Of a stretch of 50,906 bases of DNA, positions 10,037 to 49,775 are shown piece after piece (within the stretch, counting starts at the first letter, position 1; every line of letters starts with the position of its first letter). Source of the DNA: Kiritimatiellia bacterium. Lineage in GTDB: Bacteria > Verrucomicrobiota > Kiritimatiellia > CAIQIC01 > Lenti-01. Below the pieces are notes generated by a model. The model saw nothing but the letters and a program-made list of their open reading frames with translations. It made no database searches and was not told the DNA's origin. Location: contig JAFXQI010000005.1 of NCBI GenBank assembly GCA_017527155.1, positions 1 through 50,906 on the forward strand. Direction: 5' to 3'. The position numbers were made by a program, and so were the translations under genes.

Positions 10037-13000
10037 TCAGCGGCGGCGGGAGAGGGCGAGGGGGAGGAAGGGGAGGACGAGGAGGGTGAGGGCGCCGGCG
10101 ACGAGGATGCCGCCGACGCTCGCGGCGCCGATGCCGATGCGGTTGATGGCGCCGATGCCCGTCGAAAGGGCGATGGGAAGCATCCCCAGACCGGAGGCGA
10201 TGATGACCATGACGACGGCGCGGAAGGTCTGGGCGACGGCGCGGCAGATGGCGTCGGCGGGGGGCTTCCCCGCGCGTTCGAGGCGGGTCTGGGCGTCGAC
10301 GATGAGGACGGCCGGGTTGACGACGACGCCGATGAGCATGACGACGCCGAGAAGGACGAAGATGGAGATGTTCAGTCCCGCCAGGTGCAAGGCCCCCAGG
10401 ACGCCGGCGAGGGCCATGGGGACGGTCAGGAGGACGAGGAGGGGCTTGCGCCAGCTTTCGAGGATGGCCGCCAGGGTGAGGAGGGTGAGGATGACGGCCA
10501 GGAGGATGGCCTCCATGAAGTCGAGGACGGATTCGCCCAGGATTTCGCTGAAGCCGACGGGGACGAGGGTGTAGCCGTCGCCGTCGATGTGGTTTTCTTT
10601 GGCGAGGGCCTCGATTTGGGCGTTCAGGGCGGAGGCGGGGGTGCCGGCGCGTTCGTTGCCGGCCAGGAGGCAGGCGCGTTGTTTGTCGTGGCGGAAGATC
10701 ATGACTTTCTGGCCGGTGCGGATTTCCCGGGTGAAGGCGGAGAGGGGGACGGGGGGACGCCCGGGGACGGCGGGGAGGGGCAGGGTGGCGATCTGGGCGG
10801 AGCCTTGGCGTTCGGCGAGCTTGACGCGGATGTCGATGGTCTTGAGGTCTTCTTTGTAGGAGGCGGCTTCGAGGCCGTCGACGGAGGCGCGCAGGGTGGC
10901 GCCGAGAAGGGCCGGGTCGGCGCCCATGTCGGCCATGACGGCGCGGTCGGGCAGGACGCGGATCTCGGGTTTGTCGTCGCGGGCGGTGGTGTCGAGCTGG
11001 GCGATGCCCGGCAGGTTCATGGCCAGGGCCTGCAGGCGCCGGACGCGGGTGGCGAGTTCGGCGAGGTCGGGGCCCTTGAGGTTGTATTGGACGGTGGAGC
11101 CGATGCCTTCGATGTAGCCGGGGGCGGTGACGGTGGCGATGAGGTCGGGTTCGGCGCGGAGGCGCGCGCGGAGGTCTTCGAGGATGGCGGTGACGGGGCG
11201 GGAGGGGCGGTCGGCGGCGGGGCGGTAGACGATCTCGATCTGGGCGAGGTAGACGCCTTCGTTGGCCTGCCCGGCAAGGGCGTCGGCGCGTCCGGGCATG
11301 GCGAGGACGGTGACGGCATCGGGGTCGTCGCGGAGGGCCCGCGCGATGGCGAGGGTGCGCTCGGTGGTGCGGTCGAGGTCGTAGTAGTCGGGGTATTCGA
11401 GGCGCAGGAAGGCGCGGCCCCAGTCGTCGTCTTCGAGGAGGGAGAAGCCGAGGCCCCCGGCCCCGGCCTTGATGCCCGCGGCGACGAGGAAGAGCGCGGT
11501 GAGGAGGACGGCGGCGGGGACGGCGCGGCGGGAGCCGGTGCGGCGGAGCCAGGCGCCGTAGGCGACGCCCCAGCGGGCGAGGGTCTTTTCCCACGCGCGG
11601 CCGGCGCGGGCGAGGCGGCCGTCGCGGTCGGATTCGGGCCGCATGACCTTGGCGCAGAGCATGGGGGTGAGGGTGAAGGAGATGAAGATGGACGCGAGGT
11701 TGACGATGAGGGTGGTGGTGGCGAAGGGGACGAAGAAGCGGCCGACGAGGGAGGTCATCATGGCGATGGGCAGCATGACGACGACGTTGGTGCCGGCGGA
11801 GGCGAGGATGGCGACGGTCTGCGCGGAGGCGCCTTCGCGGGCGGCGGCCCAGCGGGCTTCGGGGAGGCGGGCGGCGGCGCCGGCCGCGGAGAGGCGCCGG
11901 ACGATGCTTTCGAGGACGACGATGGAGTTGGAGACGAGGATGCCCGCGGACAGGCCCATCGCGAGGAGGGTGGCGAGGTTGAGGGTGAGGCCGCAGAGCT
12001 GCATGAACCAGAGGGAGACGATGATGGTCACGGGCATGGTGACGGCGACGACGAAGGTGCTGCGCAGGTTCAGCAGGAAGGCGAAGAGGATGAGGGCGCA
12101 GAGGGCGACGGAGGAGGCGATGTCGGAGAGGGTGTTGTCGACGTTGGCCTGGACGATTTCGGCGTCGTCCTGGAGCCAGCGGAGGGTGGCGCCGGGAGGG
12201 AGTTCGCGGCGGATTTCTTCGACGCGGCGCTTGACTTCGCGGACGGTCTCGACGGTGTTGCCGTCGGATTTCTTGACGACCTTGATGGCGACGCCGGGGA
12301 CGCCGTCGAGGTAGGCGCGCTGGCGGGGCTCTTCGGTGGCGAGGCGGACGGTGCCGAGGTCGCGGAGGTAGCGGCGGGCGCCGTCGGCGCCGGCGACCTG
12401 CAAGGAGGCGATTTCGTCGACGGTGCGGCATTCGGCGTCGAACCGGACAGCCAGCTCGGTGCCGCTTTCGCGGACGCGCCCGGCGGGCACGGAGAGGATG
12501 CCGGAGCCGAGGGTGCGGGCGACGGCGGCGGCGTTGAGGCCGGCCGCGGCCAGGGCGTCGCGGTCGAGTTCGACCCAGACTTCGCGCTCTTCGCCGCCGA
12601 TGACCTTGACTTCGGCGACGCCGCGCACGGAGGCGAGGCGGTCGTGGATGCGGTTGACGGCTTCCCAGTAGAGGTCGTCGGGCGCAAGGCCGCCGGAGAG
12701 GAACATGGTGGCGATGGAGGCGGCGTTGAGGTCGAGTTTGGCGATGGAGGGGCGCTCGCAGCCGGAGGGGAGGTCGCCGACGATGGCGTCGATCTTTTCG
12801 CGGACGTCCTGGGAGGCGACGTCGACGTCGGTGCCGAGGGCGAACTCGATGAGGGTGTTGCCGGCGTTCTCGATGCAGGTCGAATATGTGTGCTTGAGGC
12901 CTTCGACGCCGGATACGGCGTCTTCGATGCGGCGGGCGACGTCTTTCTCGATGTCCTCGGGGGAGGCGCCGGGCCAGACGGTCGTGACGGTGACGTACGG

Positions 13001-13126
13001 GATGTCGACGGAGGGGAGGTTTTCGAGGGAGAGTTTTCGCCAGGAGTTGAGGCCCAGCAACACGAGCGCGATCAGGAGCGCGCTCATGGCGATGGGGCGG
13101 CGGGTGGCGGCGGTGGTCAGGAACAT
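10037..13126 (-). CDS. RND efflux transporter, inner-membrane pump (HAE1/AcrB-like)
   Basis: Inner-membrane pump of a tripartite export system. The 1029-residue protein has the RND layout: a first helix (MSALLIALVLLGL), a periplasmic porter domain (VDIPYVTVTTVWPGASPEDIEK...), six helices, a second porter domain and six more helices. It is near the usual length. In helix 4 the AcrB proton-relay pair (Asp407/Asp408 in GLLVDDAIVV) is replaced by Ser399-Asn400 (GILVSNSIVV). In helix 10 the Lys940 position reads Asn937-Pro938 (GVVVNPAVLIVD). The pump therefore lacks the classical relay residues and may use another coupling arrangement. It is preceded by its adaptor and followed by a PagL-like gene. 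Confidence 0.92.
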   Translation of the reverse strand: MFLTTAATRRPIAMSALLIALVLLGLNSWRKLSLENLPSVDIPYVTVTTVWPGASPEDIEKDVARRIEDAVSGVEGLKHTYSTCIENAGNTLIEFALGTDVDVASQDVREKIDAIVGDLPSGCERPSIAKLDLNAASIATMFLSGGLAPDDLYWEAVNRIHDRLASVRGVAEVKVIGGEEREVWVELDRDALAAAGLNAAAVARTLGSGILSVPAGRVRESGTELAVRFDAECRTVDEIASLQVAGADGARRYLRDLGTVRLATEEPRQRAYLDGVPGVAIKVVKKSDGNTVETVREVKRRVEEIRRELPPGATLRWLQDDAEIVQANVDNTLSDIASSVALCALILFAFLLNLRSTFVVAVTMPVTIIVSLWFMQLCGLTLNLATLLAMGLSAGILVSNSIVVLESIVRRLSAAGAAARLPEARWAAAREGASAQTVAILASAGTNVVVMLPIAMMTSLVGRFFVPFATTTLIVNLASIFISFTLTPMLCAKVMRPESDRDGRLARAGRAWEKTLARWGVAYGAWLRRTGSRRAVPAAVLLTALFLVAAGIKAGAGGLGFSLLEDDDWGRAFLRLEYPDYYDLDRTTERTLAIARALRDDPDAVTVLAMPGRADALAGQANEGVYLAQIEIVYRPAADRPSRPVTAILEDLRARLRAEPDLIATVTAPGYIEGIGSTVQYNLKGPDLAELATRVRRLQALAMNLPGIAQLDTTARDDKPEIRVLPDRAVMADMGADPALLGATLRASVDGLEAASYKEDLKTIDIRVKLAERQGSAQIATLPLPAVPGRPPVPLSAFTREIRTGQKVMIFRHDKQRACLLAGNERAGTPASALNAQIEALAKENHIDGDGYTLVPVGFSEILGESVLDFMEAILLAVILTLLTLAAILESWRKPLLVLLTVPMALAGVLGALHLAGLNISIFVLLGVVMLIGVVVNPAVLIVDAQTRLERAGKPPADAICRAVAQTFRAVVMVIIASGLGMLPIALSTGIGAINRIGIGAASVGGILVAGALTLLVLPFLPLALSRRR

Positions 13127-13143: not shown

Positions 13144-13171
13144 AGTGAAAAGTGACAAGTGAAAAGTGAAA
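13144..13171. repeat. Four tandem AGTGAAA heptamers
   Basis: Four head-to-tail 7-base units (AGTGAAA, AGTGACA, AGTGAAA, AGTGAAA) lie in the 60-base gap between the adaptor and pump genes, just upstream of the pump start on the minus strand. They are AT-rich in a GC-rich setting. Confidence 0.85.
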
Positions 13172-13186
13172 AGATGCGGAGGGGCG

Positions 13187-14356
13187 TCAGGGAGTTGCTG
13201 GGGATTCGACGGCAATCTTGCGGCCGTCGTAGAGTTGGGTCTGGCCTTGGACGATGACGGGATCGCCGGGGGCGAGGCCGGAGAGGATTTCGGCGCGTCC
13301 GGCGTCGCGGAGGCCGAGTTGGACGGGGGTTTCCCTGGCGGTGCCGTCGGGCTGCGCCAGGAAGACGACGGTGCCGGCGGCGCGGGAGAGGACGGCTTCC
13401 TGCGGCACGGAGAGGCCTTCGCGGTGCTCGAAGACGACGCGGATGTCGGCCATCGCTCCGGGCACGGCGGAGGGGGAGCCGGGCAGGAGGGCCTTGATCT
13501 GGAACACGCGCAGGCGCGGGTCGATGGCCGGGGATTTGGCGGAGACGATGGCTTCTACGGGGTCGGCGGCGCCGTTGGGGCGGATCTCGACGCGGGTTTC
13601 GCCGGGGACGACTTCGGCATAGTGGCGGGCGGGGAGGTAGGCGAGGGCCTTGAGGGAGTCGGTGCCCTTGACGAGGACGACGGGGGTGCCGGGGGCGACC
13701 ATTTCGCCGGGTTCCTTGAGGCGGGCGTCGACGGTGCCGGTCACGGGGGCGAGCACGGTGGCGTCGGAGAGCTGGCGCTCGGCGATGGCGAGCTGGGCCT
13801 CGGCCTGCGCCACCTGCTGGCGGGAGAGGTCGAGGGAGGCCTTGGCGACGGCGACTTCGGCGGCGGCGGTGTCGCGCTGGGTGGAGGCTTGCTCGAGTTC
13901 GTTGTCGGTGGCGTGGTCGGCGGCCTTGAGGCGGGCGTAGCGGTCGGCGTCGAGGGCGGCCTTGCGGGCGACGGCTTCGGCCTTGGCCACGCGGGCTTCG
14001 GCGACGGCCACCTGCGCGCGGGCCGTCGCGGCGGCTTCGCGGGCGATGGCAACCTGGTTGGACACGGTGAGGGGATCGACGGAGAAGAGCTTGGTCTTGC
14101 CGGCTTCCACGCGGTCGCCGAGATCGACGCAGACGTCGGAGAGCGGCCCCGGTATGCGCGCGGAGACGGTCGCGGAATCGACGGCCTCGAGGGTCCCCTG
14201 CACCGTCAGGGCGCGCTCGAACGGCGCGGTGCCCGCGGCCTCGGCGACGACGGGAAGCGGGGTGTCGGCCAGGGATGCCGACTCGACAGCCCCCTGCCGG
14301 CTGCAGGAGACGAGGAGGAGGGAGGAAAGGAGGAGGACGGGAAGGCGTGTGGTCAT
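13187..14356 (-). CDS. RND efflux periplasmic adaptor (membrane fusion lipoprotein)
   Basis: Bridges the inner-membrane pump and the outer-membrane channel. The 389-residue precursor has a lipoprotein signal (LLLVSC, Cys18). It continues with a beta-barrel/lipoyl half (VQGTLEAVDSATVSARIPGPLSDVCVDLGDRV), a long Ala-rich coiled-coil hairpin (about residues 90-185: AIAREAAATARAQVAVAEAR...ELEQASTQRDTAAAEVAVAKAS), the return lipoyl motif LSDATVLAPVTGTVDARLKEPGEMVAPGTPVV, and a C-terminal barrel (AGTVVFLAQPDGTARETPVQLG). The start lies only 12 bases from the left inverted repeat of the GxxExxY cassette, leaving a weak A/G-rich ribosome site (AAAGAAAAA). Confidence 0.9.
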   Translation of the reverse strand: MTTRLPVLLLSSLLLVSCSRQGAVESASLADTPLPVVAEAAGTAPFERALTVQGTLEAVDSATVSARIPGPLSDVCVDLGDRVEAGKTKLFSVDPLTVSNQVAIAREAAATARAQVAVAEARVAKAEAVARKAALDADRYARLKAADHATDNELEQASTQRDTAAAEVAVAKASLDLSRQQVAQAEAQLAIAERQLSDATVLAPVTGTVDARLKEPGEMVAPGTPVVLVKGTDSLKALAYLPARHYAEVVPGETRVEIRPNGAADPVEAIVSAKSPAIDPRLRVFQIKALLPGSPSAVPGAMADIRVVFEHREGLSVPQEAVLSRAAGTVVFLAQPDGTARETPVQLGLRDAGRAEILSGLAPGDPVIVQGQTQLYDGRKIAVESPATP

Positions 14357-14367
14357 GATTTTTCTTT

Positions 14368-14410
14368 CATTGAAGGCTATGAAAACCGCTGCGCGGACAT
14401 TGAAAAAGGG
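14368..14410 (+). repeat. Left inverted repeat of the GxxExxY cassette
   Basis: A 43-base arm beginning CATTGAAGGCTATGAAAACC and ending GACATTGAAAAAGGG. It contains an internal CATTGAA direct repeat and a small hairpin CCGC-TGC-GCGG. Confidence 0.88.
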
Positions 14411-14419
14411 AGAAGGGGG

Positions 14420-14830
14420 TCATGGAGAGGAGGGGTTGGAAGGGTGGTAGTCGGGACGGTTGGAACAGGCTTTGATGGCGACACGGGGATAGGCGCCGAA
14501 GTTGACGAGGAGACCGAGCTGGAGGCCGGTGGCCTTGAGATAGTTGATGAGCTGGGCTTCGTGTTCGGGCAGGAGGGCTTTGCCGGCTTTCAGCTCCACG
14601 ATGATTTTTCCATGGCAGACGAGATCGGGAATGTAGGTTTTCCGGAGCCAGTTGTCCTTGTAGAGGATCCGGAGACGGGGCTGTGCCTCGAATGGGATGC
14701 CGCGGTCGCGCAGTTCCATTTCCAAGGCTTCCTGGTACACCTCTTCGGCGAAGCCGTTCCCGAGCTGGGAATAGACTTCGAACACCGCGCCGCGGATGGC
14801 ATAGCATTCCCGCTCGTAGATCATGGACAT
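14420..14830 (-). CDS. GxxExxY protein (PD-(D/E)XK nuclease superfamily)
   Basis: The 136-residue protein belongs to the GxxExxY family. The naming motif is GFAEEVY (Gly26, Glu29, Tyr32). It also shows a PD-(D/E)XK nuclease signature: Pro68-Asp69, then Glu79-Leu80-Lys81 (IVELKA), then a hydrophobic strand LQLGLLVNFG. The biochemical role of the family is not established, so a nuclease is inferred from fold only. The start ATG at 14830 is preceded by GGGGG at the end of the right inverted repeat, so the repeat supplies the ribosome site. It is full length for the family apart from a short extra Ser/Pro tail. It is unrelated in function to the efflux genes around it. Confidence 0.88.
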   Translation of the reverse strand: MSMIYERECYAIRGAVFEVYSQLGNGFAEEVYQEALEMELRDRGIPFEAQPRLRILYKDNWLRKTYIPDLVCHGKIIVELKAGKALLPEHEAQLINYLKATGLQLGLLVNFGAYPRVAIKACSNRPDYHPSNPSSP

Positions 14831-14837
14831 GGAAGCC

Positions 14838-14879
14838 CCCTTTTCAATGTCCGCGAAGCGGTTTTCATGGCCTTCAATG
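14838..14879 (-). repeat. Right inverted repeat of the GxxExxY cassette
   Basis: A 42-base arm which, read on the minus strand, begins CATTGAAGGCCATGAAAACC. The hairpin CCGC-TTC-GCGG keeps its stem; the difference from the left arm falls in the loop. Confidence 0.88.
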
Positions 14880-14882
14880 CCT

Positions 14883-15890
14883 TCATGCTCCAGCGGGTTC
14901 CGCGGCGGCGGCGGCTTCTTCCGCTTCTTCCGCGGGGGAGAGGGCGGGGAGTTCGTGGCGGGGCTGGCGGAGGGAGGGGTCGAGGGCCTGGTTGAGGAGG
15001 AGGGCGAGGCGGACGCCGCCCTTCTTGAGCTGGTCGCGGACGATGGGCAGGTGCGAGTCGATGTAGTTGTCCAGCGTCAGGTCCATCCCCGGGCGCGACC
15101 AGGTGAAGGGGACTTTCGCGCCGTCCGTCCAGCGGTAGGCCTGCTTGCGGGCGATCCAGTAGCTGTCCACCGCCCAGCGCAGCACGTCGCCGCCGCGTGT
15201 CCAGGCGGCCTCCTCCTCCGGCGTGATCTCGCGCGACAGGATGCGCGCCATGCCCAGCACCGTGTGCTTGCCGATCAGTTCGTAGACGAGGCTTTCGTCC
15301 CAGACGCTGTGGAGGCTCGGCGGACCCCAGTCCTGGGGCGTCGTCTCGTCGAAGGCGTAGTTGCGGCCGGTGAACGAGTTGACGGGCAGCATGTTGCCGC
15401 CCATGTCGCCGTAGCGGTAGGCGCAGTGCAGCGGCTGGTGCATGTCGCCGACGAGGTGGACGAGGAAGCGCAGGGCGTCGAGCCGCGCTTCGCCTTCGAG
15501 CTTGCCGGGCTCGGCGAGGTCGTCGCGCCAGCGGTAGATCTGGCTGACGACGTCGTCGCCGCTGTCGGAGACCGTCAGCGAGAACGATTCGTCGTACCAC
15601 TGCTGGACGTCGAAGTCGATGTAGTGCCAGCGGCCCTGGCGCGGATAAAGCTCCTCATAGGCCTTGTTGCCGCGGATGATGTCGGGCCAGGACGCGATTT
15701 CGTAGTCACCGATTTCGTAGTCGTCGCCGAGGATGCGGCGGAGCTCCGCCTTGGCCGCCGGCGTCAGGCGCGGCACCGCCAGGCGCGCGATGATCGAGTG
15801 GCCTTCCGGCCCCCACGCGAGGGCGGGGCGCGGCGCGGCGGCGGCCAGCGCCAGCAGGGCGGCCGCGAGGATGGTGGACGTTCGTTTCAT
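14883..15890 (-). CDS. Secreted S1/P1-type zinc nuclease
   Basis: Single-strand nuclease/3'-nucleotidase of the S1/P1 family, with three zinc sites, exported to the periplasm or outside. The signal peptide (1-25) ends ALA, leaving Trp26 as the mature first residue, as in P1 nuclease where Trp1 is a zinc ligand. Other ligands keep P1 spacing: His31 (WGPEGH), an Asp in SWPD, a His in RWHYIDF, the cluster VHLVGDMHQPLH (His, Asp at +4, His at +10) and LHSVWDE (His, Asp at +4). The length is 335 residues. It has a GGAGGA ribosome site, and the start overlaps the TolC stop (ATGA). Its place inside an efflux operon suggests a joint role in envelope or nucleotide scavenging, which is inference. Confidence 0.92.
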   Translation of the reverse strand: MKRTSTILAAALLALAAAAPRPALAWGPEGHSIIARLAVPRLTPAAKAELRRILGDDYEIGDYEIASWPDIIRGNKAYEELYPRQGRWHYIDFDVQQWYDESFSLTVSDSGDDVVSQIYRWRDDLAEPGKLEGEARLDALRFLVHLVGDMHQPLHCAYRYGDMGGNMLPVNSFTGRNYAFDETTPQDWGPPSLHSVWDESLVYELIGKHTVLGMARILSREITPEEEAAWTRGGDVLRWAVDSYWIARKQAYRWTDGAKVPFTWSRPGMDLTLDNYIDSHLPIVRDQLKKGGVRLALLLNQALDPSLRQPRHELPALSPAEEAEEAAAAAEPAGA

Positions 15891-17302
15891 TCTGCTCCTC
15901 CTTCCGGTTCCGGTTCGGTTTGCTCCGCGTCCCCCGGCGCGCGCACGATGCCCATCGCAAGCTCGAGGGCCGCGACGGCCACCGTCTCCTGGTAGCGCGA
16001 GCGGATCAGCGCCACCTGCGCGAAATCGGCCTCGGCGCGCGCGTCGAGCGCGTCCGAGACGGGCAGCAGCCCCTCGGCGGCGCGGTCGGCGCGGTCGGCG
16101 GCCTTGGCGACGGCCACGTCGGCGGCCATCCGGCGCACGGCCACCGCCTCGCGCGCATCCCGTACCTGCGCCTCCGCCGCCAGCACCCCGACGATCACCG
16201 ACAGGAACGCCTCCTCCCGCTCCGTCTCCGTGCGCCGCAGACCCGTCTTCGCCGCGCGGTAGGCCGCCGAGTTCGCGAAGCCGCTGAACAGCGTCCACGC
16301 CCCCTGGAACCCCGTGCTCCAGCCCACCGCGTCCGCCACCAGCCCCTCGCCGCCCCAGGCGTGCGTCGCGCGCACCGACAGCGTCGGCAGGAACGCGCAG
16401 AACGCCCGCCGCACCTGGTGCTCGTTCATCACCACCAGACGGTCCGCGATCGCCAGCCGCGGATGCGTCTCCAGCGCCCGCAGCACCAATTCCTCCACCG
16501 TCCCCTCCGGCATCTGCGGCCCCGCGCAGTCGCCCGAGAGCTCGATCTCCGCCTCCGGCGGCAGCCCCATCGCCGCCAGCAAATCCGCCTCCAGCACGCG
16601 CAGGCGGCGGCGGGCGCTGTCCAGCTCCGTGCGGCGCGCGAGCGCCTGGAGGTCGGCCTGGCCGCGCTCCCAGTCCGCCGCGTAACCCTCCGCGGCAAGG
16701 CCGCCGACGCGGTCCGCCAGTTTCGCGGCGGCGTCCGCCTGCGACTCCAGCGCGCGCACCGTGTCGCGCTGCGAAAGCACGTCGCAGTAGGCCGCCGTGG
16801 TGCGCAGCACGATGGCCTGGCGCACGTAGTCCGCCGCGATGCCGGCCGCCGCGTGCCCGTGGCGCGCCGCCGCCCAGAGGAACCACGTCGAGGGCGCGAA
16901 CACCGGCAGCCCGACCGTCAGCGTGCCCACCGTGTCCTCCTGCGGACCGAACGCCAGCTGCCCGCCCGACGTCATGCCCAGCAGGTTGTCGTAGTCGCGG
17001 TCCGTGTACCCCACGCCCGCCGCCACGCGCGGCAGGAACGCCGAGAACGCCGCCGTCTGCCCCAACCCCGCCAGCACCCGGTTCAGGTCCGCCTCCCGCA
17101 CCGCCGCGTTGTTCGTCAGCGCCACCCGAACGCAGTCCTCCAGCGACAGCGCCCGCTCCGGCAGCGCCTCCAGCCGGTTCCGCAGCGTCTCCCGGAACGC
17201 CTCCGTCTGCTCCCTCCGCGCCTCCGCCGGATCGAACGACCGGCACCCGGCCGCCAGCACCAGCGGCAGCAGCGCCGCCACGACAAGCGCGCGCCGTGTC
17301 AT
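15887..17302 (-). CDS. TolC-like outer-membrane efflux lipoprotein
   Basis: Outer-membrane channel of the tripartite system. The 471-residue precursor has a lipobox (LVLAAGC, Cys20). Two similar halves follow, as in TolC/OprM: LSLEDCVRVALTNNAAVREADLNRV...AYCDVLSQRDTVRALESQADAAAKLADRV and LVLRALETHPRLAIADRLV...VGVLAAEAQVRDAREAVAV...LLPVSDALDARAEADFAQVALIRSRYQETVAVAALELAMG. The ATG overlaps the marR stop (ATGA). The frame is open far upstream: the shifted reading frame of marR runs into it without a stop, giving a possible 644-residue read-through product. Confidence 0.92.
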   Translation of the reverse strand: MTRRALVVAALLPLVLAAGCRSFDPAEARREQTEAFRETLRNRLEALPERALSLEDCVRVALTNNAAVREADLNRVLAGLGQTAAFSAFLPRVAAGVGYTDRDYDNLLGMTSGGQLAFGPQEDTVGTLTVGLPVFAPSTWFLWAAARHGHAAAGIAADYVRQAIVLRTTAAYCDVLSQRDTVRALESQADAAAKLADRVGGLAAEGYAADWERGQADLQALARRTELDSARRRLRVLEADLLAAMGLPPEAEIELSGDCAGPQMPEGTVEELVLRALETHPRLAIADRLVVMNEHQVRRAFCAFLPTLSVRATHAWGGEGLVADAVGWSTGFQGAWTLFSGFANSAAYRAAKTGLRRTETEREEAFLSVIVGVLAAEAQVRDAREAVAVRRMAADVAVAKAADRADRAAEGLLPVSDALDARAEADFAQVALIRSRYQETVAVAALELAMGIVRAPGDAEQTEPEPEGGAE

Positions 17303-17859: not shown

Positions 17860-17892
17860 GGCGGACCTGCGTGCGGGAAGAGGGCCGGCGGA

Positions 17893-17931
17893 GTTTTCCA
17901 ACCATTGGAAACGTTATTTCCAATCATTGGA
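17893..17931. repeat. Two TTTCCAAT-type palindromes
   Basis: GTTTTCCAACCATTGGAAAC (17893-17912) and TTTCCAATCATTGGA (17917-17931) are variants of the palindrome TTTTCCAATGATTGGAAAA found in a cluster at 27645-27746. Confidence 0.85.
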
Positions 17932-17958
17932 GTTGTCAGGCGAAGAACTTGCGATTTC
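17929..17958 (+). repeat. 30-base dispersed word, copy 1
   Basis: GGAGTTGtCAGGcGAAgAAC followed by TTGCGATTTC. Inverted copy at 18156-18185 and a third at 27834-27863, each close to TTTTCCAAT palindromes. Confidence 0.75.
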
Positions 17959-18155
17959 GTTCATGCCAAGCCGGGTAGGGCGGCGAGTCCCCTCGCCGCC
18001 GGAAACCGGAACGTGCAAGCGAAGGCCATGGGTGATGCGGATGCAATTCAGCCCGGACTTGGGAAAACAGGCGTCCGCACATTTCCGGCGCCGTCCTCCG
18101 GCATGACGGACACCGGCGGGCAGGGACTGCCCTCCCTACCCATCCTTGCACATGG

Positions 18156-18185
18156 GAAATCGCAAGGTTTTCACCTGCCAACTCC
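18156..18185 (-). repeat. 30-base dispersed word, copy 2 (inverted)
   Basis: On the minus strand it reads GGAGTTGGCAGGTGAAAACC then TTGCGATTTC, differing from copy 1 at only a few positions. Confidence 0.75.
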
Positions 18186-18205
18186 ATTCGGAAAACGGCC
18201 GGAAA

Positions 18206-25764: not shown

Positions 25765-26131
25765 CCCGCACAGCCGGAATTGAACCAACACGCCTACCAT
25801 ACCCCATCCCCCCCCTCCCGTCAACCCCGCCCGCGCCGAATTTTTCGCCTGGGTGGCAGGCCCGGACCGTGACGTTGGATATATCGATCGGGAAAAGGAG
25901 ATGAACTCCGATCGGCCACTTTCCCGGCGGTTCCCTCCCACAAGGTCGCGCGGAAGCGCGACCCTCCCGTTGCGCTCTCCACGGGGAGGGACGCGCTTCT
26001 GCGCGTCCGCAGTGGAAATGCCTGGCGGGATAAAAGGGAGAGGACACCCTGTTTCCTGGTCCGCCCTGGAATCCCCGCACAGCCCGCATTTCGCACTTTC
26101 CTCCACCCGCCCCCGGAGTACACTTTCCCGC
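25765..26131. other. Divergent intergenic region between nusA and uvrC
   Basis: No gene is supported. It holds structured repeat copy 2 (25943-26063) and a C-rich stretch (25801-25835). Just before uvrC, TACACT (26119-26124) sits seven bases from the start codon and may be its -10 box, but no clear -35 is visible. Confidence 0.6.
25943..26063 (+). repeat. Structured dispersed repeat, copy 2
   Basis: Same element as 9342-9458 in the same orientation: GGTCGCGC-GGAA-GCGCGACC, CCCTCCC...GGGGAGGG, GGACGCGC-TTCT-GCGCGTCC, then GGAAATG...ACACC...TGTTT. Confidence 0.82.
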
Positions 26132-27655
26132 ATGGCGCACCACACCATAACCTTCTCGCAGAAAGTCCGCGACAAGCTGGCGGCCCTCCCCGGCAAGCCC
26201 GGCGTGTACCTCATGCGCAACAGCCTCGGCCGCATCATCTACGTCGGCAAGGCCGCCTCCCTCCGCAACCGCGTCTCCTCCTACTTCCGCCCGGCCACCT
26301 TCGCCAAGGCCGACCCCAAGCTCCGCGGCCTCATCCGGTCCATCGACGACCTCGACTTCATCGTCCTGCGCTCCGAGGCCGAGGCCACCCTCACCGAGTC
26401 GCGCCTGATCAAGGACTACCGCCCCCGCTACAACATCGAGCTCAAGGACGACAAGCGCTTCCTGCTCCTCAAGGTCCGCCCCGACGACCCCTGCCCGCGC
26501 TTCGAGGCCGTCCGCCTGCGCAAGGACGACGGCGCCCGCTACTGGGGGCCCTTCGCCTCCTCCGCCAGCGCATGGGCGTCCCTCGAATTCGTCGAGCGCG
26601 AATTCGGCATCCGCCACTGCGCCGCCGCGCGCCCCGGACCCGACGACCACAAGCACTGCATCGACGACGTCGTCCGCTTCTGCTCCGCCCCCTGCATCGG
26701 CAAGACGGACCCCGACGCCTACCGCGCGCGCGTCCTGGAAGCCTGCGCCTTCCTGGACGGCGACCGCCCGGGCCACCTCGAAACCCTCAGGAAGCGGATG
26801 GAAGAAGCCGCCGCCGAGATGCGCTTCGAGAAGGCGGCCGCCCTGCGCGACTGGTACCTCCTGCTCGTCCGCGGCCTCCGCGAGCGCGCCGTCGTCCGCA
26901 AGACCCCGCCCATCCAGCGCGCCGAAGCCGACGCCGGCCTCGCCGAACTCCAGCGCCGCCTCGGCCTCCCCTCCCCTCCGCACCGCATGGAATGCTACGA
27001 CATCTCCAACATCTCCGGCACCCTCTCCGTCGCCTCGCAGGTGGTCTCCATCGACGGCGTCCCCACGCCCGCCCACTACCGCATGTACCGCATCAAGACC
27101 GTCGAAGGCTCCAACGACCCCGCCTCGATGGCCGAAGTCATCCGCCGCCGCTTCACCCGCGCCCTTTCCGAGAACGAGCCCCTGCCCGACCTCGTGATGG
27201 TGGACGGCGGCCTCACGCAGCTGCGCGCCGCCCGCGCCGAACTCGACGCCCTGGGCCTGCGCGACCGTCCCCGCCTGACCGGCATCGCCAAGCAGTACGA
27301 AGAACTGTACCACGACCCCTCCGCCGAACAGCCGCCCCTCCGCTTCTCGGCCAACTCCCCGGCCCTGCACGTCATCCAGCGGCTGCGCGACGAATCCCAC
27401 CGCTTCGCCCTCACCTACCACCGCAAGCTCCGCGCGCGCCTCATCCGCGAATCGGTCCTCGACGACGTCCCCGGCATCGGCGCCAAGCGCAAGGCCCAGC
27501 TCCTGGCCCACTTCGGCTCCCTCTCCCGCATGAAGGCCGCCTCCCTGTCCGACCTCGAATCCGCCCCCGGTCTCTCCCGCGAAACCGCCCTCCTCCTCCA
27601 CGCCGCCCTGCACCCCTCCGACGCCTCCCCTGCCCCGCCGCCGGTTTTCCAATGA
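26132..27655 (+). CDS. uvrC: UvrABC excinuclease subunit C
   Basis: Makes both incisions in nucleotide excision repair. The 507-residue protein has a GIY-YIG domain (PGKPGVYLMRNSLGRIIYVGKAASLRNRVSSYF), a UVR motif (LRKRMEEAAAEMRFEKAAALRDWYLLL) and the UvrC C-terminal nuclease domain (ECYDISNISGTLSVASQVV...LPDLVMVDGGLTQLRAA...GIAK). A helix-hairpin-helix tail follows (DDVPGIGAKRKAQLLAHFGSLSRMKAAS). It is shorter than the roughly 600-residue E. coli protein but complete in domains. The last codons and the TGA stop lie inside the first TTTTCCAATGATTGGAAAA palindrome, so the protein ends PVFQ through repeat sequence. Confidence 0.95.
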   Translation: MAHHTITFSQKVRDKLAALPGKPGVYLMRNSLGRIIYVGKAASLRNRVSSYFRPATFAKADPKLRGLIRSIDDLDFIVLRSEAEATLTESRLIKDYRPRYNIELKDDKRFLLLKVRPDDPCPRFEAVRLRKDDGARYWGPFASSASAWASLEFVEREFGIRHCAAARPGPDDHKHCIDDVVRFCSAPCIGKTDPDAYRARVLEACAFLDGDRPGHLETLRKRMEEAAAEMRFEKAAALRDWYLLLVRGLRERAVVRKTPPIQRAEADAGLAELQRRLGLPSPPHRMECYDISNISGTLSVASQVVSIDGVPTPAHYRMYRIKTVEGSNDPASMAEVIRRRFTRALSENEPLPDLVMVDGGLTQLRAARAELDALGLRDRPRLTGIAKQYEELYHDPSAEQPPLRFSANSPALHVIQRLRDESHRFALTYHRKLRARLIRESVLDDVPGIGAKRKAQLLAHFGSLSRMKAASLSDLESAPGLSRETALLLHAALHPSDASPAPPPVFQ

Positions 27656-27746
27656 TTGGAAAACTTTTTTCCAATGGTTGGAAAAAACGGGCCGGTTTTT
27701 CCAATGATTGGAAAAATCTTTCGGCCATTTTCCAATGATTGGAAAA
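27645..27746. repeat. Cluster of four TTTTCCAATGATTGGAAAA palindromes
   Basis: Copies at 27645-27663, 27665-27687, 27696-27716 and 27728-27746. The core CCAATGATTGG (once CCAATGGTTGG) is invariant and the flanking T/A arms vary in length. Spacers are 1 to 11 bases, so this is not a CRISPR array. The first copy supplies the uvrC stop codon. Confidence 0.92.
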
Positions 27747-27833
27747 AATTTTCCGCCGCCGCGCAGCGCGCCAGAGCGGTTTGCGAAACAGTGTGGCCTC
27801 CATTCCTTGGGGTTGGGAGGAAGCCCCCGACCA

Positions 27834-49219: not shown

Positions 49220-49240
49220 CCCCGCCCAACTTCTTCACTC

Positions 49241-49325
49241 ATCCAACCACCAACCATCCAACCACCAACCACTAACCATCCAACCACCAAACCATCCAAC
49301 CATCAAACCATCCAACCATCAAACC
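49241..49325. repeat. AACCATCCAACCA tandem repeat before usp
   Basis: About 85 bases made of AACCATC / CAACCACC variants, ending in two units AACCATCCAACCATCA that run right up to the ATG. It has no G on the plus strand. No ribosome site is present, so the usp leader consists of repeat. Confidence 0.9.
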
Positions 49326-49775
49326 ATGCCCTCCTTCACCCGCATCCTCTACTGCACCGACTTCTCCGAGAACGCGACCCAGGCCTTCGCCTACGCCGTC
49401 CGCGCGGCCACCCGCAATCCCGGCGCCGAACTCCACCTCCTGCACGTCATCCCCGAGCCCTCGGCGCAGTTCTGGCGCGGCTACATCAACGCGGTGGACG
49501 AAGACGTCGACGCCAACGCCCGCCGCGAAATCGACGAAAAGATCGCGACCACCTACCGCCCGCTGGTCCCCGGAAGCGTCCCCTTCACCGTCGCCTTCCG
49601 CATCGGCGACGCCTCCCAGAAGATCCTCGAATACGCCGCCGAGACCCACCCCGACCTCCTGGTGATCGGCCGCCAGGGCGCCGGCACCTCCGTCGGCAAA
49701 CTCCTCTACGGCAACGTCGCCGAACGCGTCGTCCGCAAATCCCCCGCCCCCGTCCTCGTCATCCCGCCCCGCTGA
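49326..49775 (+). CDS. Universal stress protein (UspA family)
   Basis: Small ATP-binding stress protein. The 149-residue protein has the Usp fold: RILYCTDFSENATQAFAYAVRAA, LHLLHVIPEP, then HPDLLVIGRQGAGTSVGKLLYGNVAERVVRKSPAPVLVIP. The last block carries the G-x2-G-x(9-10)-G-N nucleotide-binding motif (GRQG...YGN), so it is likely an ATP-binding member. It is preceded by the tandem repeat and followed six bases later by riboflavin synthase, with which it may be co-transcribed. Confidence 0.93.
   Translation: MPSFTRILYCTDFSENATQAFAYAVRAATRNPGAELHLLHVIPEPSAQFWRGYINAVDEDVDANARREIDEKIATTYRPLVPGSVPFTVAFRIGDASQKILEYAAETHPDLLVIGRQGAGTSVGKLLYGNVAERVVRKSPAPVLVIPPR

Follow-up and report, generated by a model that had tools for sequence, protein, structure and literature searches.

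GxxExxY genes are enclosed by inverted-repeat arms in many bacterial phyla, and arms and gene are kept together as one conserved unit. That the arrangement recurs so broadly points to a type of miniature mobile DNA which is widespread and, it seems, has not been described before. We think it probable that these units are nuclease-driven, REPIN-like elements, an analogue of the REPIN-RAYT system built on an unrelated nuclease. In the literature we found no published description of such an element and met GxxExxY in passing mention; arm motifs and PDDEXK_3 were not found there.

The unit described in most detail lies in the window, by which we mean the whole stretch of 50,906 nt that was analysed, from a Kiritimatiellia bacterium. 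It is 512 bp long (14368-14879) and consists of a GxxExxY gene enclosed by inverted-repeat arms (Table 1), exactly as the first-pass annotation had placed it. The arms are complementary at 40 of 43 positions, ungapped, with 426 nt in between. They differ by three substitutions and no indel, and not by two substitutions and one indel as first reported; one of the substitutions does sit, as had been noted, in the loop of the CCGC-TTC/TGC-GCGG mini-hairpin. In our inverted-flank search the pair scored 35.5, and 0.4% of mismatched flank pairs reached 20. Read from the outside in, the right arm is CATTGAAGGC CATGAAAACC GCTTCGCGGA CATTGAAAAG GGG, which can be read as four blocks of about 10 nt, one of them replaced by the hairpin half GCTTCGCGGA. 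Six bases separate the upstream arm from the ATG and nine separate the stop codon from the other arm. Judging from the sequence, the ribosome site is likely AAAAGGGGG, partly within the upstream arm.

Table 1. Features of the window unit and its neighbours (window coordinates).
Feature	Position	Strand	Details
Left arm, 3' of the gene	14368..14410	+	43 nt; related copies dispersed in the genome
Right arm, 5' of the gene	14837..14879	-	43 nt
GxxExxY / PDDEXK_3 gene	14420..14830	-	136 aa, intact; PF13366 E 9e-41, TIGR04256 E 1.8e-40
Likely ribosome-binding stretch, inner end of upstream arm	14837..14845	-	putative, from reading the sequence
E29 codon, invariant Glu of GxxExxY, predicted catalytic motif I	14744..14746	-	43-sequence alignment
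D69 codon (D of PD)	14624..14626	-	43-sequence alignment
E79-L80-K81 codons (ExK)	14588..14596	-	E79 and K81 invariant, 43-sequence alignment
Q93 codon	14552..14554	-	invariant, 43-sequence alignment
S1/P1 nuclease, upstream neighbour	14883..15917	-	PF02265 E 8e-47; stop codon 3 nt outside the arm
RND efflux periplasmic adaptor (MFP), downstream neighbour	13187..14356	-	TIGR01730; start codon 11 nt outside the arm
RND efflux pump, next downstream	10037..13126	-	PF00873 E 1.5e-190

The unit had been described as sitting between two genes of an efflux operon. This is correct downstream, where the adaptor and pump genes follow, but not upstream, where an S1/P1 nuclease gene adjoins the unit and a TolC-like gene follows further out. 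The host operon is an efflux operon only in part. Between the pump and adaptor genes there is also an array of the heptamer AGTGAAA (13144-13173, 4.3 copies).

The window protein passes the family profile cut-offs comfortably (139.4 bits vs. 22 and 137.9 vs. 35), and a Pfam scan matched it solely to PF13366, even at E ≤ 10. Its AlphaFold2 model has a pLDDT of 91.5 and a pTM of 0.84. The best PDB match found by Foldseek is SSO0001 (E = 1.8e-4), a Cas4 protein, followed by lambda exonuclease and its relatives. E29, Y32, D69, E79, K81 and Q93 are invariant in an alignment of 43 sequences; the last of these corresponds to the Q motif of RecB/Cas4-like enzymes. Because E29, D69, E79, K81 and Q93 are all invariant, the predicted active site looks intact. 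GxxExxY is thus predicted, from model and alignment, to be a small Cas4/lambda-exonuclease-like PD-(D/E)XK nuclease. Kinase matches in a single-sequence PDB search were due to chance. With the family profile, a PDB search returned solely the junction-resolving PD-(D/E)XK enzyme T7 endonuclease I (E 0.25-0.3), which we treat as a lead only; Foldseek gave Cas4 and lambda exonuclease instead.

GxxExxY is the sole ORF of the window unit, and none of the cassettes was seen to carry a transposase. Carriage by phages was not seen among 50,697 records; eight plasmid records carry GxxExxY, and none of the eight is predicted to be mobilizable. A known anti-phage defence system was considered and rejected, as no PADLOC model matched (best Csx19 at E = 0.048).

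To establish how general the arrangement is, we assembled 80 named GxxExxY loci from many phyla and about 100 from 38 relatives of the window genome, 31 of which carry GxxExxY genes. Inverted flanks were called when the best inverted match between the upstream and downstream flanks scored at least 17. Inverted repeats enclose 146 of the 179 genes (82%), in many phyla, compared with 1.65% of flank pairs from mismatched loci; at this score cut-off arms went undetected around the other 33. When the relatives are taken by themselves, the rate is 88% against 2.9% in the control. Of the ORFs neighbouring GxxExxY genes, only 1 of 103 has inverted flanks. At some loci the downstream arm falls within the final codons of the gene, and C-termini of the form ...HPVNPVNPV are encoded by the arm. 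The window genome (3.2 Mb in 114 contigs) has seven PF13366 matches, five of which had clear inverted flanks on first look, each pair distinct in sequence. The first-pass annotation had expected other GxxExxY genes flanked by arms. Inverted repeats do flank them, but the arm sequence differs from one subfamily to the next, which had not been foreseen.

The arms share a design. They usually comprise about three short units that repeat every 9-10 nt, with an autocorrelation of 0.40 at lag 9 and 0.37 at lag 10 (0.28 when shuffled) and secondary rises at 18 and 20. Units often start with AACC, as in AACCACTAATGCACACTAATGGACACTAAT, AACCACAGATAGACACAGATGGACACAGAT and GACAGGATGACAGGATTTACAGGATGAACAGGAT, and their sequence varies among loci. 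This variation follows the GxxExxY subfamily and is also seen among paralogues within one genome. Arm similarity and protein similarity are correlated in Mantel tests overall (r = 0.37; 0/1000 permutations as high), within the family (r = 0.47; 0/2000) and in the named set (r = 0.51; 0/2000). Because arms were compared in a single orientation and the finder sometimes gave the reverse complement, these tests undercount matches.

The same covariation is evident in pairs of loci from different genomes. Arms are alike in 83% of pairs with very similar proteins and in about 2% of pairs with dissimilar ones. In the former, arm similarity is 0.81, compared with 0.37-0.40 for the adjoining 30 nt outside and a baseline of 0.18. 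For L085/L086, L069/L237, L080/L260 and L260/L265, similarity outside the arms is near baseline, which can be read as one element lodged at different locations. Pairs of the L260/L265 type share neighbour genes further out, so the arms have been conserved against a background of diverged intergenic DNA; the other near-baseline pairs come from different genomes in which shared neighbours were not found. Between the window arm and those of L085 and L086, its 61-70% relatives, we saw no convincing similarity. Co-inheritance of the whole unit could explain part of the correlation between arm and protein.

Arms also occur without the gene. As the first-pass annotation had anticipated, the window arm has further copies, about 30 in its own genome at E < 1e-3 (18 pattern matches vs. 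0 in the control) and 44 core matches in the sister species G001, and the possibility that the arm is unique to the window locus was rejected. In both genomes most of these copies stand alone or follow one another in direct tandem at a spacing of about 60 nt, and inverted doublets of the window arm were not seen in the window genome. Elsewhere, copies gather around the gene. Eight of the ten genomic copies of the CAGGATT arm lie within 10.6 kb around their own GxxExxY gene, 18 arm copies form four inverted-repeat arrays within 6.3 kb around the gene at L140, arrays are also present at L109, and gene-less doublets adjoin the gene-bearing doublet at L133. Extra cognate copies near the gene were found at 13.6% of loci, compared with 1.6% when foreign arms were used.

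Gene-less doublets are also present in a cultured bacterium, Geminisphaera colitermitum TAV2, which has 48 arm copies (control, 0). Neighbouring arms form 16 inward doublets, no outward doublets and one same-direction pair. Only 1 of the 16 doublets encloses a GxxExxY gene, so that gene-less doublets are far commoner. Five measure 102-104 nt, and several have a common interior motif. The doublets end in TTAAAAA and not in a T run after the stem.

Other repeats in these genomes were noted in their own right. Intergenic DNA in the comparison of G000 and G001 forms mosaics too repetitive for scoring the presence or absence of solo arms. Within the window, 17887-18188 and 25926-26055 are repeat mosaics, in which many stretches partially match intergenic DNA elsewhere in the genome. 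The intergenic region at 27640-27755 holds a run of several near-identical TTTTCCAATGATTGGAAAA palindromes, with similar copies at other places in the genome, and 49240-49327 is a tandem array of about 11 copies of the octamer CATCCAAC.

Cassettes are replaced in place. In G001 the window site is filled by a cassette whose gene is 77% identical, compared with 96-99.5% for S1/P1, MFP and RND, and a different version of the repeat forms both arms of that cassette. G000 and G001 have divergent GxxExxY alleles at four of six shared sites and near-identical copies at the other two. The divergent alleles have a dS of 0.47-1.0 and a dN of 0.12-0.18, compared with a dS of 0.06-0.09 for the window's three neighbour genes, and their flanks are 94-100% identical in nucleotide sequence at the three sites profiled. 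The borders of exchange are sharp, and at the four sites the replaced alleles remain in the same sublineage. A dN/dS of 0.14-0.34 among the divergent alleles indicates purifying selection. At one cassette (L222:4521-5020, G000 C41) both arms have changed in concert between the sister species, CACAAAGGACACAAAG vs. CACAAAAGGACAAAAAG. This cassette lies directly upstream of a gene that reads as an FlhB/SctU-like export gene.

Cassettes are also absent or decayed at sites that are filled elsewhere. Empty sites had been predicted, and they exist: the one empty counterpart of the window site that we found is the S1/P1-MFP junction of another genus, with 3 nt between the S1/P1 stop and the MFP start. 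The junction between cysS and tmk (gene names read from sequence) holds a CACGGAT-type cassette in G012, a CAGGAAA-type cassette with 41% amino acid identity to it in G011 and G015, a decayed GxxExxY remnant in G004 and, in G009 (L328), a gene-less palindrome of tandem AGTCAGG-type heptamers, a further repeat. It is empty in five genomes (G006, G016, G007, G008 and G010). At L007 (L224:5796-6075, G000 C91) most of the gene has been deleted, and the 32-nt arms are intact and 94% complementary; this region was not found in G001. Because many cassette sites are common to species and genera, turnover must be slow, which means that movement is rare or that selection retains cassettes. No target-site duplication was established, the empty cysS/tmk sites being too diverged, and in the TAV2 doublets the ends, TTAA..TTAA, are self-complementary, which makes element end and target duplication indistinguishable. 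With a non-unique arm, other flanked GxxExxY genes and unoccupied sites, the original reading of a minimal mobile cassette has gained support.

Where both neighbours could be called and agreed in direction, the GxxExxY gene is in sense with them in 30 cases and antisense in 2. Symmetric ends should insert either way, and this bias therefore indicates selection for co-transcription; it suggests that the cassette borrows the transcription of its host operon. Arm mismatches on the sense strand comprise 199 G.U and 216 A.C (P = 0.43). Since G.U is not in excess, the symmetry of the arms is apparently kept at the DNA level and not by RNA pairing.

We propose the following mechanism. The nuclease would recognise the units of its own arms, whose phasing is roughly that of a helical turn, and would cut or process arm DNA, either at both arms or at a gene-less inverted doublet. 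Repair or re-insertion could then copy the arms alone, giving gene-less palindromes, or the arms with the gene, into other intergenic positions. The gene, apparently without a promoter of its own, would survive when inserted in sense behind a stop codon, riding the operon transcript. The main doubt over this reading concerns the factor that acts on the arms, which may be GxxExxY or another; nuclease activity on the arms, the chemistry of transposition and the role of the gene itself in driving the spread are what we infer. A more specific claim is one we advance tentatively, at somewhat less than even confidence: the cassettes would be autonomous and make up a class of miniature mobile DNA of their own, with a minimal Cas4-like nuclease, in place of a transposase, recombinase or reverse transcriptase, copying the phased repeats, and now and then the gene that encodes it, from one intergenic site to another.

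The doubt about the acting factor is expressed most directly by a passenger model, in which a transposase, a RAYT or the like, encoded elsewhere, recognises the arms as its ends, and GxxExxY travels as cargo that has another role. Such a model would accommodate the dozens of gene-less copies of the arm family in the window genome, the excess of gene-less over gene-bearing palindromes in TAV2 and the presence of unrelated four-helix-bundle genes (PF05635) between inverted repeats of shorter period. However, one trans-acting enzyme predicts one arm type, and the arms track the GxxExxY subfamily and differ among paralogues of the same genome. Cognate arms are moreover clustered round their own gene, and no transposase was seen in any cassette. 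We regard the passenger model as unlikely. We put still less weight on a process like that of homing endonucleases, in which the target cut by GxxExxY would be a doublet lacking the gene or an unoccupied junction, and the cassette would be copied in during repair. The sharp-bordered replacement of alleles within the same sublineage at four of six sites would be expected from it, as would sites that are long-lived across genera and same-arm doublets without the gene. The cysS/tmk junction, however, hosts different subfamilies and arms, which speaks against a site strictly reserved for one nuclease; related elements are also found in unrelated outside flanks, and the empty junctions show no obvious common target.

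Action at the RNA level, similar to that of intervening sequences in 23S rRNA, is very improbable. Here base pairing between the arms of the operon transcript would let RNase III excise the GxxExxY message. The sense orientation with both neighbours (30 vs. 2) is consistent with this, the window arms do pair in predicted RNA (z = -5.3), and the layout is that of the Coxiella IVS, which has a different ORF and tandem heptamers (PMC4990558). The balance of G.U and A.C mismatches, in contrast, does not point to selection for RNA pairing. The model leaves both the phasing of the arms and the dispersed gene-less DNA doublets unexplained, and Rfam had no match in the window. We give almost no credence to a static regulatory or terminator repeat that flanks an ordinary gene by chance. 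The arms do lie tight to the gene, between operon genes, but such a repeat would not account for empty sites, replacement and remnants, for arms that covary with the protein across genomes or for TAV2 doublets that end in TTAAAAA with no T run. The nuclease-driven reading is thus the one we retain, and because one of the systems is found in the cultured bacterium TAV2, the relation between GxxExxY and the arms is directly testable.

Several known systems resemble the GxxExxY unit in part. In the Coxiella 23S rRNA IVS, tandem heptamers precede the ORF (PMC4990558). Like the cassettes, this IVS has a single ORF, here of the S23p/four-helix-bundle type and about 120 aa long, terminal inverted repeats with short internal repeats, a length of about 430-500 nt and a place within a host transcription unit (PMC4990558). 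Unlike it, GxxExxY cassettes lie between protein genes and not in 23S rRNA, and their ORF is unrelated; the IVS is cut out by RNase III, whereas the GxxExxY arms bear no sign of RNA-pairing selection. With insertion sequences and MITEs the cassettes share inverted ends round a gene, internally deleted and gene-less derivatives, and empty sites. They differ from insertion sequences with terminal inverted repeats in having no transposase and no established target duplication, and in ends that are internally repetitive and very variable. The predicted fold and active-site residues are those of the Cas4 and lambda-exonuclease group, but GxxExxY proteins measure about 120-135 aa, stand alone and are tied to the repeats that flank them, and we saw no CRISPR or phage recombination partner. 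In the same genomes, inverted repeats flank 17 of 29 PF05635 four-helix-bundle genes (23S IVP; L185-L214), with arms of shorter period, of which GTTGAAAAGTTGAAAG and AGAGACCAGAGACT are examples. The ORF of 23S rRNA intervening sequences belongs to PF05635. GxxExxY and PF05635, small protein families unrelated to each other, may share a way of life.

The closest parallel is that of RAYTs (REP-associated tyrosine transposases) with their REPs and REPINs, where a nuclease gene is flanked by inverted repeats that co-vary with it, gene-less doublets are dispersed, repeats cluster locally and the gene is more diverged than its surroundings (Nunvar 2010, PMC2817692; Bertels and Rainey 2011, PMC3116915). 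The GxxExxY units likewise have one small nuclease gene between inverted repeats, both in the window and at 146 of 179 loci. Their arms co-vary with the protein and cluster near the gene, gene-less inverted doublets are dispersed (16 inward in TAV2, also at L133 and L140, although none of the window arm were seen in the window genome), and the gene is more diverged than its neighbours at four of six sites. In contrast to RAYTs, GxxExxY has a predicted PD-(D/E)XK, Cas4-like fold without the Y1/HUH tyrosine transposase domain, several subfamilies and arm types coexist per genome, and the gene is strongly biased to the sense orientation in operons. The arms consist of three phased short direct units and not, like a REP, of a palindrome tagged with a GTAG-type motif. 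With an unrelated enzyme and a different repeat design, the GxxExxY element is therefore not a RAYT.

GxxExxY proteins are multicopy across a large part of bacterial diversity. Their link to cognate dispersed repeats leads to the hypothesis that the protein is a repeat-specific nuclease and the repeats are its miniature elements. If the units are indeed autonomous, they could explain many short repeats found dispersed in the genomes of Verrucomicrobiota, Kiritimatiellae, Bacteroidota and Planctomycetes. The hypothesis would also put to the test a Cas4-type nuclease as a driver of DNA mobility without a transposase, and it would mean that the REPIN-RAYT arrangement was invented a second time, independently.
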